This document shows, in pieces, positions 542 through 18,880 of a stretch of DNA of 25,546 nt; positions within the stretch are counted from its first letter, which is position 1; each line of letters starts with the position of its first letter. The notes beneath the pieces were generated by a model. It was not told the DNA's origin and searched no databases. It worked only from the letters and a program-made list of their open reading frames with translations. Position numbers and translations under genes: made by a program. Origin of the DNA: a virus; the IMG/VR virus record IMGVR_UViG_3300032820_000100, positions 1 through 25,546 of that record. One strand, given 5' to 3'.

Positions 542-679
542 CTATTTCCTTTTCTTTTTATTTTTCTTCTTCTTCTTTTTCTTTTTATCTTTTTTCTTCT
601 TTTTCTTTGGCATGAGCTCCTCCTTTCTACGATTAAATTCTTCTTCACTAATCAGATTAAATTCGTCTTCACTCATCAT
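542..679 (-). CDS. Lysine-rich small protein with acidic repeat
   Basis: This is a 45-residue ORF. Its first half is two tandem copies of an acidic octapeptide (MSEDEFNL, ISEEEFNR). Its second half, from M23 on, is almost pure lysine (MPKKKKKKDKKKKKKKKN then KKKRK). The ATG at 679 overlaps the stop of the halogenase-like gene as ATGA, the coupling used by most genes here. There is also a strong internal start: AAGGAGG at 619-625 lies five bases before the ATG at 613, which would give only the 23-residue polylysine part. Both forms may be made. I do not recognise a family. Binding to nucleic acid or to an acidic partner is plausible from charge alone. Being a modification substrate is a hypothesis treated in the findings. 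Confidence 0.6.
   Translation of the reverse strand: MMSEDEFNLISEEEFNRRKEELMPKKKKKKDKKKKKKKKNKKKRK
631..678. repeat. Tandem 24-base direct repeat
   Basis: Two adjacent 24-base units (631-654 and 655-678) both begin GATTAAATTC and differ at only two positions (641 versus 665, and 650 versus 674). Within the lysine-rich peptide gene they encode an in-frame duplicated octapeptide with the pattern (M/I)SE(D/E)EFN(L/R). The second unit ends at the stop codon of the upstream halogenase-like gene. Confidence 0.9.
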
Positions 680-1815
680 GAAAAATAGTTATATCCAAAG
701 TCTTTGTCAAGTTGCTGTAAATGAGACGCCTCGTAAAACCAAGGGGGTACATAACCTGGAACTCCCTTAGCATTATAATATTTAAAGTCTCGTACGACGC
801 GTTCCATTTCAACACTCTTTTTTAACTGAAGCAAAGCTCCTTGTTGAGCAAGTTTCCAGAATTTAGAAAAAATTGTCGAACCTCCATGATAGTAGTAATA
901 AATCATATCCTTGGTGTTTTGGATGCCTCGAGTAAAGTCTCGATTGGTTCGTTGAATAGAAGAACCCTTGGTTAAGACCGAAAGAACAAGACGATTGATT
1001 TGGTTGTAAACAAAAAGAGAGTTAGAGGACAGAGGCTCAAAGAAGAAAGCACGATTGCCATTCTTAAAGACGCGTCCATCACAGATCTCGTTAGCTTGGT
1101 AAGGGGTAAAAGAATATTCAATTGGATCTAGGTCTTTGATTGGTACATTAATTTCTTTAGAAAAATTAGCCTGTGCTTCTTTCTTAGAAGAGATAGCATC
1201 AGAGTACATATATCCATACGACTGACGTTCTTGTAAAGGAATCGTAAACATCCAGCCATCAGGAGTAGCGACGTGGCCGGTATAGTTCCATGTTCCGGGC
1301 TTCTTGATGTTATGAATCAATGCATGATTGACCAACATACCAGGAGGATTCGTATAGCCTGAATAGTCGGTCGGGAATCCCCGACAGTCTATAATAAAAT
1401 CATAGTCCAGGTCATCTAAACTTTTAACTGTTTGTTCTTTAACTTTAAACTTGGAAGACCACTTCTTAACAAGAAGAGGTAGGATATAATTTTTCATACG
1501 ATGAGTATCAATATGAATAGCGATAGCTCCATCCCAGAGGGGATTAATAAACGAATGTTTTCTCCATTTTTTAAAAACTGTTCCAATCTTTATGGTTCCT
1601 TTGATAGTGTCTAAATCTTTATAGAGATTAAAATCAATAGCGCGTTGCATCTCTGTCATAAAAGAAGGCTGAGTGCTTTCTCCTATGCCTACACTCTTGA
1701 TGTTAGGATCGTGAATAGAAGTAATTTGCCAATCATTAGGTAGCCACGAACAAAAATAGCATAGACTTTGTAGTCCGGCGCTTCCTACTCCTATGATAGC
1801 TAGTGTTTTTTTCAT
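676..1815 (-). CDS. Flavin-dependent (tryptophan halogenase-like) halogenase
   Basis: This 379-residue flavoprotein belongs to the tryptophan-halogenase family. FAD binding is shown by the N-terminal G9-V-G11-S-A-G14, by GIGESTQP (43-50, family form VGEaTiP) and by D143-C-R-G146. The segment GTIKIGTVFKKW (73-84) aligns without gaps to the block holding the catalytic lysine of PrnA/RebH, giving K76. GWMFTIP (187-193) matches the family WxWxIP motif except that F190 replaces the second Trp. EPLSSNSL (260-267) matches the EPLESTG block, but the catalytic Glu is replaced by S263. It is shorter than bacterial tryptophan halogenases (about 500 residues). It may chlorinate, brominate or iodinate a small molecule or peptide using FADH2, or the Glu loss may have redirected the chemistry. 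No flavin reductase is visible. It is coupled by ATGA to genes on both sides. Confidence 0.85.
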   Translation of the reverse strand: MKKTLAIIGVGSAGLQSLCYFCSWLPNDWQITSIHDPNIKSVGIGESTQPSFMTEMQRAIDFNLYKDLDTIKGTIKIGTVFKKWRKHSFINPLWDGAIAIHIDTHRMKNYILPLLVKKWSSKFKVKEQTVKSLDDLDYDFIIDCRGFPTDYSGYTNPPGMLVNHALIHNIKKPGTWNYTGHVATPDGWMFTIPLQERQSYGYMYSDAISSKKEAQANFSKEINVPIKDLDPIEYSFTPYQANEICDGRVFKNGNRAFFFEPLSSNSLFVYNQINRLVLSVLTKGSSIQRTNRDFTRGIQNTKDMIYYYYHGGSTIFSKFWKLAQQGALLQLKKSVEMERVVRDFKYYNAKGVPGYVPPWFYEASHLQQLDKDFGYNYFS

Positions 1816-2117
1816 ACCTTATAAAAAGTATAACGAACGGTAAGCTCTTCTCCTTCTTTAATATCTTGCGCTGCAACAAGATTCCATTTTTTATAATCAA
1901 AGGAATCGTTTGTCATGAGGAGTTCCACCTTAACACAATTCGCTTCATTCGCATGATTAATGAACCCTCCGAGTGGAGTTCTAAAGATTGTATCTTTGAT
2001 CTCCATATGACTCATACCCATGTTGGTTCCAATCGCAATATTTTCGAGAGCAAAGAGTCCCAGTGCGTGAATTTTTGATGTTTTAATCGTCAGATAGTTG
2101 GGTAAAGGTTTATACAT
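1812..2117 (-). CDS. Minimal SET-domain protein (putative lysine methyltransferase)
   Basis: The 101-residue protein is essentially a bare SET domain. The opening strand and loop read KIHALGLFALENIAIG (15-30), matching the 'GlGlFA...I..G' start of SET domains. GFINHANEANC (51-61) is the SAM-binding NH motif, with N54 and H55. DIKEGEELTVRYTFY (85-99) is the C-terminal 'I..GEELt..Y' block, with Y96 as the likely catalytic tyrosine. There are no pre-SET or post-SET cysteine clusters. SET enzymes transfer methyl groups from SAM to protein lysines; the substrate here is unknown. The gene starts one base into the stop of the upstream gene (TAATG) and ends overlapping the halogenase-like ATG as ATGA, so it should be made together with that protein. 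Confidence 0.82.
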   Translation of the reverse strand: MYKPLPNYLTIKTSKIHALGLFALENIAIGTNMGMSHMEIKDTIFRTPLGGFINHANEANCVKVELLMTNDSFDYKKWNLVAAQDIKEGEELTVRYTFYKV

Positions 2118-4379: not shown

Positions 4380-4594
4380 TATTGACAATACCAACCGGCA
4401 ACTTCTACATTAGAATTATTTAAGATCCATCCTTGATCTTCACCTTTTTCCTCAGGTCCGTGGTACGTGGCTAGTTTCTCAAGAACCTTATAACCCTGAG
4501 TAAAACAGTCGGGTTTAGCCTTATAATAAACTTTATGATCCACTGTGGGAAAAGTAAGTAAGGCTCCTGTGGCTAGAATAATTATTATTTTCAT
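4379..4594 (-). CDS. Small secreted protein
   Basis: The 71-residue protein has a signal-like N-terminus (MKIIIILATGALLTFPTV) and two cysteines in the mature part (C30 in KPDCFTQGY, C70 in GWYCQ) that could form a disulfide in the periplasm. It is the same length as the plus-strand secreted protein opposite it and has a similar plan, so the two may be distant relatives. Its ATG overlaps the stop of the upstream oxygenase gene by 4 bases. The function is unknown. Confidence 0.7.
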   Translation of the reverse strand: MKIIIILATGALLTFPTVDHKVYYKAKPDCFTQGYKVLEKLATYHGPEEKGEDQGWILNNSNVEVAGWYCQ

Positions 4595-5142
4595 TTTTTA
4601 TCCTCTATTTTAAAGTTAAAAGAAACAGAAATACGTACATCATCACTTAAGTTACGTGTAACATGATGATCCATGGTTGAAGGAAATAGAAAAAATTCAC
4701 CTGCTCTAGGCATTATAGGATATTTGTTAGTAACATGACTATTATGAGGGTAAAGAAAAACAAGATGACCTGATTTTTCTGGAACTTGGACATAATATAC
4801 TCCTGAAACATAAATTCTTCCTTCATAATCCTCTTTCTCAATATGATTATGAGTAACTGTACTCATATTTTTTTTATGAATGTGAGCCCAGAAATTTAAT
4901 AGTTTTAAATTTTTCTTATTTAGATAACCGAACTGAGTAATAATATGAATTATAACTTTTTCAAACTCCGGGTTTATTGGAAATATGGTATCTTCATGCC
5001 TGCTTACAATATAAGTAGTATCTTTAGGATCTTTTATATAAGGTTGGGGATCTTTTAATATTATTTCTTTAAACTTTTCATTGTCGATTCCAGGCACAAA
5101 CCCTCTACTAAATGCTATAGTATGTATTACATTATTATACAC
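4591..5142 (-). CDS. 2OG-Fe(II) oxygenase (PF13759-like)
   Basis: The 183-residue protein matches the compact 2OG-FeII_Oxy_5 group. THNHIEKED (97-105) holds the first iron ligands around H98/H100. SGVYYVQVPEKSGHLVFLYP (113-132) is the conserved double-stranded core. PRAGEFFLFPSTMDHHVTRN (145-164) carries the distal His (H159 or H160), and R170 in DDVRISVSF should hold 2-oxoglutarate. The usual HxD acid is not obvious: HNH stands in its place, as in several members of this group. It would hydroxylate an unknown protein or metabolite, releasing succinate and CO2. The start is GTG, directly after the TAA of the upstream gene, with AAGGA before it. Confidence 0.82.
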   Translation of the reverse strand: MYNNVIHTIAFSRGFVPGIDNEKFKEIILKDPQPYIKDPKDTTYIVSRHEDTIFPINPEFEKVIIHIITQFGYLNKKNLKLLNFWAHIHKKNMSTVTHNHIEKEDYEGRIYVSGVYYVQVPEKSGHLVFLYPHNSHVTNKYPIMPRAGEFFLFPSTMDHHVTRNLSDDVRISVSFNFKIEDKK

Positions 5143-7656: not shown

Positions 7657-8331
7657 TTAAGTTTTATTTTTATCCAATTTCTCATCCTTAATCTCCTCAA
7701 TATCATAGAAGAATCTATCCGAATCTTCTGTTTTCCATTTACGACTATCTTCTACATTCCATTCAGTGGTTTGTACTTTCCAGTCGAATGGGATTTCATC
7801 CCTCACGGTAAATGAAGGGATACTCCAGATTAGTCTGTTGTTTGGCTGAGCCGCATAATTGCCATTTTCCAATGCCAATACATGAGCGCACTTATGTTCG
7901 TGCGGAATTTCCGAATGATCGGTGTCAACTATATTACTCTCTGGATGAGCCCAGTCAACCGTAAAAAGGTACGCACCTGAGTACCATTTTTTATCTTTGC
8001 CTATGAATTTACCGGACTGACCGTCCAAGACATCAAAAGAAGTAACGCTAGGATAGTAACTAAAGCAATTCCATAGCTCCAGCTCATCAAGTCGCATCCT
8101 AGGAACCTCTTGGACATTAAAGCCTCTTTGTATGAATGCAGAGATCGGCAAACGGTAGAATACAGCCCCATTTTCCATAATTGCATGGAAGAGTATCGGA
8201 CGCCCTGTAATCGATGCAAACCCAAAGAGTAAGCAGTCTTCCACTTCTCCATGATGCTCTTTAAGATCATAGAGATACTCTCTCCTGATCTGCGCGTAGG
8301 TTGCAGGAATGTTTGCATTTAGATAGGCCAT
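7657..8331 (-). CDS. Conserved marine-phage protein of unknown function
   Basis: This is a 224-residue protein. The N-terminus MAYLNANIPATYAQIRREYL and the middle segments VFYRLPISAFIQRGFN, WNCFSYYPSVTSFD, FTVDWAHPESN and AAQPNNRLIWSIPSF are typical of a protein found, from memory, in many uncultured marine phages. It looks like a compact beta-rich fold, with no membrane helix and no catalytic motif I can name. HSEIPHEHKCAHVL contains several His that could bind metal. It lies between the small-gene cluster and the replication genes. The ATG at 8331 has AGGAG about ten bases upstream. Confidence 0.8.
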   Translation of the reverse strand: MAYLNANIPATYAQIRREYLYDLKEHHGEVEDCLLFGFASITGRPILFHAIMENGAVFYRLPISAFIQRGFNVQEVPRMRLDELELWNCFSYYPSVTSFDVLDGQSGKFIGKDKKWYSGAYLFTVDWAHPESNIVDTDHSEIPHEHKCAHVLALENGNYAAQPNNRLIWSIPSFTVRDEIPFDWKVQTTEWNVEDSRKWKTEDSDRFFYDIEEIKDEKLDKNKT

Positions 8332-17219: not shown

Positions 17220-18212
17220 TTAAGCCAAAGGTTTTTTCGCCGTCGTCAATGAATAATAACCGAAAGTTGGAATCGTTTGGAAATCGATAAATCCAGCCTG
17301 TTCTAATAGTAATTGCAGTTCTTTCGCTGTGTATTGTTTTCCTTGTTCATATAATAACATGGAAATAGAAAAGCAGGCGATGGGTAAAGGACCAGTCTTA
17401 GATGCATTCAATAACATTTCATGAAGACAAATAGTTCCGCCTGGTTTAAGAGTTGTGAAAGCTTGTCGCGTTAAATGTTGAAGGGATTTTAAATCCCAAT
17501 CATGAAAAACATTTCCAAATAATACACCATCATAATTAACAGGCCAAGGATCTTTAAACATATCCGTAGCTTGTACTGCTATACGATCTGTTAATTTATT
17601 TCTTTTAATATTTTGTTGGGTACGTTGACCTACTCTTTCTAATTCCATAATGGTAGAACGTAGTTGAGGACAATGTTTAGCTAGAGCAATACATAATGAT
17701 CCGGATCCACCTGCAACATCCAAGAGAGTATGCATAGATTTAAAAATAGTTTGATTACTGAGAGCCACAGCTGCGGGTGCAGTTATGATATCCATATGAT
17801 GAATAAAATGATTGAGTTGTTCATCACTAAAACCATGAAGGTAATATCTTTCAGAGCTATCAAAATTTTCAGAAGATTTTGTTAGAGCAGGACGTAATTC
17901 TTTTACTATGGAGTAATGTGATTCTATAAGTTGACCATAATAAAATGGACCTGAAGGAAGTAAATAAGTACGCGCAACTTCTGTTAAAGTGTAATGATTC
18001 TCTGAGTATTTCTTCAAGAAACCCAGCGCACTTGCTACTATCATCATTGCTTCGGTCGCTCGCAAAGTTAAATGTAATTCATCAGCCACCGTTTCAATAG
18101 TCTTAGGGGAGAGTGCTAAACATTCAAACAGTTTTACTTCTTGTGCAATTCCTATAGTTGGAAAAGCATATGAATTTAATCGTAGCTCATATATTTTGCG
18201 ATCGTCAATCAC
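17220..18212 (-). CDS. SAM-dependent O-methyltransferase (COMT/hydroxyneurosporene type)
   Basis: The 330-residue enzyme has the two-domain plan of small-molecule O-methyltransferases. The N-terminal winged-helix dimerisation domain (about 10-86) includes VKLFECLALSPKTIETVADE and FLKKYSENHYTLTE. The catalytic domain has LLDVAGGSGSL (163-173) for SAM, E190 as ribose ligand, D217-M-F, and FHDWD (236-240) with H237 as the catalytic base of this family. LKPGGTICLHEMLL (255-268) completes the fold. Family members methylate hydroxyls of aromatic or isoprenoid compounds. Its full bacterial length suggests it was acquired from a bacterial donor. The GTG start is 2 bases after the upstream stop, so it is coupled to the oxygenase gene. 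Confidence 0.88.
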   Translation of the reverse strand: MIDDRKIYELRLNSYAFPTIGIAQEVKLFECLALSPKTIETVADELHLTLRATEAMMIVASALGFLKKYSENHYTLTEVARTYLLPSGPFYYGQLIESHYSIVKELRPALTKSSENFDSSERYYLHGFSDEQLNHFIHHMDIITAPAAVALSNQTIFKSMHTLLDVAGGSGSLCIALAKHCPQLRSTIMELERVGQRTQQNIKRNKLTDRIAVQATDMFKDPWPVNYDGVLFGNVFHDWDLKSLQHLTRQAFTTLKPGGTICLHEMLLNASKTGPLPIACFSISMLLYEQGKQYTAKELQLLLEQAGFIDFQTIPTFGYYSLTTAKKPLA

Positions 18213-18214
18213 TT

Positions 18215-18880
18215 TTATTTTATTTCTTTATGCCAAAAATATTGTGGATGACCTGTTGCACGTGCAGCGGCTTGATTATAAATTTGTTCATTCATTTCTT
18301 GAGAAAGATCAGCATCAACAGATTGAATAAAGCAATTAGTAGAGTAACGGACTCCTGTTTTAATAGGACTCACTTCATGAACCCAAAAAAAATCCGCAGG
18401 CCAGATCATTCCTTCTCCTTTTTTTAATGTAACGGTGTGTTGACTATTCCAAAACCCAAATACTCCGCCGGTATAGTTATCATTTAAGTTAAAAGTACAG
18501 CTGGCATAAGTATAATCAGAAAAGTCAGAATGAGGGTGAATCTTTGCTCCTACCTCATACTTTAAGAGCCTGTACATATGAGAAAAGTTTAAACATTTAG
18601 AGAGCAGAGGGAGATGGAAAGCTTTAAATTGTTTTAAATAAAGTAACCATTTTTCAACCATGGCTTTAGTTTTTTTATGCACGAGTTCATGTTCCTTACT
18701 CTTAGCAGGAAGACTCAAGCATTTAAAAGTTGATTGCGTATCAATCCCTGTGTTTGCTTCTGCACAATTTTCTAAAATGGATTCTTTCTCATGTTCCTTA
18801 TGGTAGTTCATTAATAATTCACATTCTTGATCGGACATTATATTAGGAACTTTCAATATTAAATCCTGAATATTAAACAT
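18215..18880 (-). CDS. Prolyl-4-hydroxylase-like 2OG-Fe(II) oxygenase
   Basis: The 221-residue protein begins with VPNIMSDQECELLMNYHKEH, the usual N-terminal helix of this family. YEVGAKIHPHSDFS (108-121) gives iron ligands H117 and D119 (HSD). FNLNDNYTGGVFGFW follows, then KKGEGMIWPADFFWVHEVSP (153-172) with H168. GVRYSTNCF carries R178 for 2-oxoglutarate. It hydroxylates a protein side chain or a small molecule. Next to an O-methyltransferase, it could make the hydroxyl that is then methylated; that link is inference. It has its own promoter, with almost no leader before the ATG. Confidence 0.85.
   Translation of the reverse strand: MFNIQDLILKVPNIMSDQECELLMNYHKEHEKESILENCAEANTGIDTQSTFKCLSLPAKSKEHELVHKKTKAMVEKWLLYLKQFKAFHLPLLSKCLNFSHMYRLLKYEVGAKIHPHSDFSDYTYASCTFNLNDNYTGGVFGFWNSQHTVTLKKGEGMIWPADFFWVHEVSPIKTGVRYSTNCFIQSVDADLSQEMNEQIYNQAAARATGHPQYFWHKEIK

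Follow-up and report, generated by a model that had tools for sequence, protein, structure and literature searches.

What becomes of a phage halogenase when the glutamate beside its catalytic lysine is missing? In flavin-dependent halogenases (FDHs), FADH2 and O2 give a flavin hydroperoxide, the halide is converted to HOX, and HOX travels through a 10 Å tunnel to the essential lysine. The role of the glutamate next to this lysine is still debated, and we know of no phage halogenase for which the natural substrate has been established. The question is posed by a 25.5-kb virus record, analysed here over its whole 25,546 nucleotides (the window), in which one gene encodes a halogenase-like protein with serine at the glutamate position. 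Our results show that this protein is a genuine variant within an enzyme family already known, that the variant is well conserved, and that its clade deserves more interest than the protein alone. New here are the compact clade without the glutamate (Glu-less, below), four oxygenase fusions, and phage arrays in which two to five halogenases are interspersed with 2OG oxygenases.

A compact member of the halogenase family

The gene encodes 379 amino acids and lies on the minus strand (Table 1); the initial annotation had given no strand. Its product has a sole match in Pfam, Trp_halogenase (PF04820, E=9.6e-32, 110.8 bits with a cut-off of 21 bits), and among PHROGs it matches phrog_2928, "tryptophan halogenase" (E=1.6e-69). 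A phmmer search against solved chains returns Thal, RebH, PyrH, VirX1 and PrnA. With the A3 profile, Thal is found at E=8e-34 and, outside the Trp-type group, only CmlS, at 6e-5. By sequence, the protein is far nearer to the Trp-type FDHs than to the phenol types. Hence, "phenol-type" in what follows refers to the logic of the residues and not to descent.

Table 1. Features of the halogenase gene, its upstream neighbour and the fusions in related contigs.
Feature	Position	Strand	Evidence
Compact FDH-like protein, Glu-less type	676..1815	-	Pfam, PHROGs, AlphaFold2 model, Foldseek, structural alignment
GxGxxG FAD-binding motif, G9-V-G11-S-A-G14	1774..1791	-	Sequence; G9, G11 and G14 in 66/66 Glu-less relatives
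Catalytic Lys76, codon AAG	1588..1590	-	Aligned with Thal K79; 66/66 Glu-less relatives
WxFxIP, W188-M-F190-T-I192-P193, variant of WxWxIP	1237..1254	-	Sequence
FFEPLSSNS block, F258-S266, equivalent of FxEPLESTG	1018..1044	-	Profile alignment
Glu260, codon GAG	1036..1038	-	66/66 Glu-less relatives; register equivalent of Thal Glu355, RadH D325 and CHEESY1 D307 (PMC7948982, PMC5637929, PMC12645471)
Ser263, codon TCC	1027..1029	-	Position of PrnA Glu346 / Thal Glu358, by profile alignment
Small SET-domain protein, 101 aa, directly upstream of the halogenase	1812..2117	-	PF00856, E=6.4e-8
Halogenase-2OG-like fusions in relatives	L034:6001-7923, L193:6706-8658, L198:4752-6719, L213:8374-10338		Single ORFs

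The AlphaFold2 model of the protein, made from the A3 alignment, has a pLDDT of 93.2 and a pTM of 0.91. Its best Foldseek matches are all FDHs (PyrH with E about 1e-26), and VIA-align gives Z scores of 31–38 to Trp halogenases, with 357–366 of the 379 residues aligned, 30.2 to VirX1, and about 27 to CndH and CmlS. The PF04820 match, the phrog_2928 match and the fold are all far above chance and bear out the initial annotation, which had described a halogenase-like flavoprotein. Pfam score, FDH fold, GxGxxG motif and catalytic lysine place the protein in the PF04820 fold family; its FAD binding and halide-dependent halogenation are predicted.

The gene had also been called short and phage-borne, and short it is compared with the Trp FDHs (PrnA, RebH, Thal, PyrH, SttH and AbeH), which have about 500–540 amino acids. 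The whole-protein fold, the FAD motif, the lysine and the FxEP block are common to both; the window protein differs in having Ser for Glu346/358 and WxFxIP, and apparently in lacking most of the Trp2-contact segment. Judged from the model, it is a complete FDH with insertions removed. An alignment with long phage FDHs places the largest deletion in the region that follows the Lys motif and precedes the AxH motif. This region harbours the HxF (Trp2) substrate contact of Trp halogenases (PMC8269204), and relative to the long phage FDHs most of it is absent. By inspection, we see no group A Trp4 motif either.

Such a truncation of the substrate side suggests that free tryptophan is not the substrate. 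It speaks against an indole-type substrate as in the Trp halogenases, which would require water, Glu260 or a group of the substrate to replace the missing glutamate. We consider this distinctly unlikely, although sequence and fold are closest to the Trp FDHs, several phage homologues have Gln at the site, and the Glu-to-Gln change in PrnA keeps about 1% of the rate, so that the glutamate is not absolute (PMC8407142).

The catalytic positions

Residues were mapped by aligning the A3 profile of 23 clade members to Thal, with a constant offset between chain index and published number. Lys76, which sits in GTIKIGTVFKKW, aligns with Thal Lys79, Ser263 with Thal Glu358, and Glu260 with Thal Glu355 (Thal names from PMC7948982). 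The EPLESTG block thus reads E260-P261-L262-S263-S264-N265-S266, and the catalytic glutamate of PrnA, RebH and Thal (Glu346/358) is a serine. The FAD motif, Lys76, WxFxIP and EPLSSNSL had all been read correctly from the sequence, and the alignment to Thal upholds both the retained lysine and the replaced glutamate.

Could another acid stand in for the glutamate? Glu260 is not a special replacement, because the Glu-bearing enzymes also have this acid and it is equally conserved there. When we scanned the short relatives for positions that are acidic in the Glu-less proteins but not in those with Glu, we found only D303 (Asp or Glu in 55/66; mostly Asn in the Glu set). D303 is not a convincing replacement: it aligns with an Asp in Thal, which keeps its glutamate, and the position is absent from the listed first-shell residues of PrnA (PMC9764358). 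Beyond Glu260, this comparison of Glu-less and Glu-bearing short relatives yielded no convincing replacement acid.

Ser263 is read from a single metagenomic contig, but TCC is at least two substitutions away from either Glu codon (GAA/GAG), so a single base error is no explanation. The initial annotation had proposed looking for Ser263 in close relatives, and it is conserved: the two nearest, 54% and 51% identical, also have Ser. Codon and relatives rule out a sequencing or assembly error, whose probability we put close to zero.

Relatives and selection

Many homologues were found in IMG/VR, which we searched with the window protein and with alignments, and six in GTDB genomes. Across 126 distinct short proteins, position 263 is occupied by Glu in 55, Ser in 37, Phe in 21, Gln in three, Val in three and Ile in two, with one each of Ala, Asp, Thr, Tyr and His. 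The 66 proteins with Ser (37), Phe (21), Val (3), Ile (2), Ala, Thr or Tyr (one each), and hence with neither acid nor amide at this site, are our Glu-less set. All 66 keep Lys76, Glu260, Pro261, Phe190 and the FAD glycines. The single His is found in L156:4001-5266, and Gln occurs in the phage homologues of S-SSM7, Syn1, S-PM2 and CP21.

In a tree of 92 sequences, the window protein falls into a clade of 29 members (21 Ser, seven Phe, one Ala; SH-aLRT 99), whose sister is a clade of 42 members with Glu or Asp (SH-aLRT 97). A second tree, of 107 dereplicated sequences, was given long FDHs as outgroup; in it, the Glu-less clade has 54 rows (27 Ser, 19 Phe, three Val, two Ile and one each of Thr, Ala and Tyr; SH-aLRT 98) and no acid. 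Both are quick trees without bootstrap, and the long-FDH outgroup is not a clean side of a branch. The loss of the glutamate is neither an error nor private to the window protein, but clade-wide: most of the 66 Glu-less proteins fall into a single clade, with SH-aLRT support of 98–99. Four Ser proteins (L086, L153, L155 and L157) sit elsewhere on a long branch; given this separate branch, the glutamate may have been lost twice.

The members from bacterial MAGs (Melainabacteria, Cyanobacteriota and Myxococcota), which have Val or Ile at the site, nest within the 54-row clade. These compact Glu-less homologues are found at L158-L162. Their surroundings are ordinary chromosomal ones, and we found no neighbour shared among them.

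For close pairs of Ser proteins and close pairs of Phe proteins, dN/dS (Nei-Gojobori) lies between 0.05 and 0.26, with a median of about 0.075, the pairs not being independent of each other. Such low values indicate purifying selection, and hence the Glu-less genes are maintained as working proteins. It is therefore very unlikely that the window protein is a paralogue that is degraded or has no catalysis of its own, such as a subunit of the full-length halogenases that have Glu, for the following reasons. First, a catalytic residue has been lost, but dN/dS is low, and the lysine, Glu260 and the FAD motif are invariant. Second, short non-Glu copies do share loci with long halogenases in 19/85 cases, sometimes as direct neighbours (L195, L223 and L226), yet this is no commoner than for short Glu-bearing copies (14/58); a special pairing of Glu-less and long halogenases can be rejected. 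Third, the window, itself a fragment, has no second halogenase.

A different flavin chemistry would mean that the protein has kept the FDH fold but given up halogenation, acting as a monooxygenase, hydroxylase or oxidase. The WxWxIP motif has been suggested to prevent monooxygenation (PMC8407142), and it reads WxFxIP in every Glu-less relative. In addition, the glutamate site tolerates Ser, Phe, Val, Ile, Ala, Thr and Tyr, and some Glu-less proteins are fused to an oxygenase-like domain (see below). However, there are active FDHs, Bmp5 among them, in which WxWxIP is missing or varied (PMC8407142), and hence we do not count WxFxIP as excluding the protein from the fold family. Phe190 in place of the second Trp was rightly noticed at the outset, but this protein does not stand alone in it: Phe190 is common to nearly all short relatives (66/66 Glu-less and 54/56 Glu- or Asp-bearing), including the Glu-bearing sister clade. 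Lys76 is invariant as well, and this lysine is required for halogenation in PrnA, RebH, Rdc2, RadH and PltM (PMC8407142, PMC5637929). The loss of halogenation thus seems unlikely to us, though it is an alternative to be taken seriously.

A large and divergent set of Glu-less proteins under selection, next to a sister clade of similar size that keeps the glutamate, amounts to a natural experiment on the role of this residue. The scaffold, some 100–150 residues shorter than the model enzymes, is also a possible small biocatalyst.

Comparison with known halogenases

Phenol halogenases are already known to lack this glutamate (PMC8407142). Like the window protein, the phenol-type FDHs RadH, Rdc2, PltM and CHEESY1 keep the lysine, lack the glutamate and have an acid just before the proline. 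RadH is inactive with K74A or D325A and less active with F328A; D325 is the proposed base for the phenol OH, and F328 occupies the register position of the glutamate (PMC5637929). In CHEESY1, where F310 precedes the motif Ser, D307 is proposed to co-stabilize HOX together with K79 (PMC12645471). D325 and D307 correspond to Glu260, and F328 and F310 to Ser263, by motif register taken from the published numbering and not from an alignment of our own. The Phe members of the Glu-less clade resemble RadH and CHEESY1 in having Phe at the site.

The likeness has its limits. Sequence similarity to the phenol-type FDHs is low, their size is different, and the window protein has Ser where they have Phe or Leu. 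The published motif, FX[DE]PX[EFL], does not include Ser among its allowed residues (PMC8407142); F258, E260 and P261 of the window protein fit, the last position does not. The 21 Phe members of the 66 Glu-less proteins fit the whole motif.

The initial annotation had supposed that the missing glutamate could mean an altered substrate, halide use or chemistry. An altered substrate is plausible. New chemistry is not indicated by the loss of the glutamate alone; since Glu-less FDHs such as RadH are already known, an altered substrate appears likelier than new chemistry.

Among phage enzymes, VirX1, the halogenase of cyanophage Syn10, is likewise a phage-borne FDH of the same fold, but it has 531 amino acids and only about 21% identity in the structural alignment, and a review assigns a role to its active-site glutamate (PMC8407142). 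The "tryptophan halogenases" of phages S-SSM5, S-MS29, S-SSM7 and S-ShM2 belong to the same PHROG, are just as compact (359–388 amino acids) and have Phe at the second Trp; they differ in having Glu at the site (S-SSM5, S-MS29 and S-ShM2) or Gln (S-SSM7).

Proposed mechanism

With slightly more than even confidence, we lean towards a working compact FDH that operates in a Glu-independent, phenol-type mode. FADH2 from a host reductase would give the flavin hydroperoxide, which would oxidize the halide to HOX. HOX would then pass down the tunnel to Lys76, which would position or carry it to an electron-rich aromatic ring. Position 263 would not have to supply a base. The best candidate for the acid would be Glu260, as D325 is in RadH, so that Lys76 and Glu260 could form the working pair and the ring be halogenated without the glutamate. 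The substrate accommodated by the truncated side would not be free tryptophan but perhaps a larger molecule that bears a phenolic ring and that partner 2OG-Fe(II) oxygenases would also modify. Sequence, fold and precedent are what lead us to expect FAD binding, halogenation, this class of substrate and this role of Glu260.

Oxygenases, arrays and fusions in related contigs

In many related contigs, two to five halogenase genes form an array with several 2OG-Fe(II) oxygenase-like genes, sometimes with a carbamoyltransferase and often by tail genes; one 345-kb contig has five PF04820 genes. Examples of array contigs are L226, L204, L055, L073, L186 and L195, with the carbamoyltransferase at L055:4211-5995, and genes for tail fibres or tail sheaths often adjoin the arrays. 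For phages with multiple halogenases, we found only general mentions in the literature. A 2OG gene is the direct same-strand neighbour of 25/85 short Glu-less, 22/58 short Glu and 26/51 long Glu halogenases, and 2OG genes make up 8.7% of non-adjacent genes. 2OG genes are therefore only modestly enriched beside halogenases, and the Glu-less type does not stand out in this.

The strongest link between a halogenase and a 2OG oxygenase-like domain is provided by four Ser-type fusions of 641–656 amino acids with a C-terminal domain of about 200 (Table 1; L034 and L197 are the same contig and were counted once). The C-terminal domain has an invariant HxD...H..R motif. Its model (pLDDT 84) matches the P4H of Pseudomonas putida in Foldseek (E=5.7e-11) and reaches Z scores of up to 18 to prolyl hydroxylases and other 2OG oxygenases; a sequence search against the PDB gives only a marginal match, to a Tet-like dioxygenase (E=0.12). 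PHROGs labels the domain "ferrochelatase" (phrog_2954), which is contradicted by the HxD...H motif and the fold.

The fusion suggests that the two domains share a substrate but does not identify it: the structural matches include a P4H bound to a protein, EF-Tu, as well as SnoN, which acts on a small molecule. One could go further and suppose that the compact Glu-less halogenase and the 2OG-Fe(II) oxygenase are two halves of a phage modification system with a common substrate, which might be tyrosine or some other side chain in a protein of the phage or its host. Halogenation and hydroxylation would then be viral post-translational modifications, with arrays of up to five halogenases. We regard this as a speculation that is quite unlikely to be correct as it stands. 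Nevertheless, fusions and arrays offer a handle, through genome context, on the partners of phage halogenases.

Genomic surroundings

The window is a fragment, and the best matches of its DNA polymerase are phages of about 58–60 kb. The replication block runs primase, UvrD-like helicase, DUF3310, PolA and a gene in the place of PurM, following the gene order of Pelagibacter phage HTVC027P and phage 023Pt_psg01. The initial annotation had drawn a parallel to cyanophages, which is not supported for this genome, since the replication genes are nearest to those of HTVC027P-type phages. We found no halogenase in the 58–60 kb phage records with the best polymerase matches at the threshold of the search used. 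Hence, in what appears to be a pelagiphage-like virus, the halogenase gene seems to be accessory and variable.

The gene in the PurM-like slot after PolA (7657-8331, minus strand) is labelled "ferredoxin" (phrog_3704). This label looks wrong: HTVC027P and 023Pt_psg01 have a PurM-like gene in this slot, and the product of the window gene has no obvious Cys cluster.

Directly upstream of the halogenase, the SET-domain gene overlaps the halogenase start by ATGA, which suggests translational coupling. Its product is a possible protein-lysine methyltransferase in a phage, judging from the domain match. As a conserved partner of the halogenase it has to be rejected, as the SET gene is found at no relative's locus. 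Next upstream of it lies a gene for a Methyltransf_24 protein.

By Pfam, the window also has two 2OG-Fe(II) oxygenase genes, at 4591-5142 and 18215-18880. The latter adjoins a gene on the minus strand (17220-18212) for a secondary-metabolism type of O-methyltransferase with a dimerization domain (PF00891 and PF08100), which is unusual for a phage.
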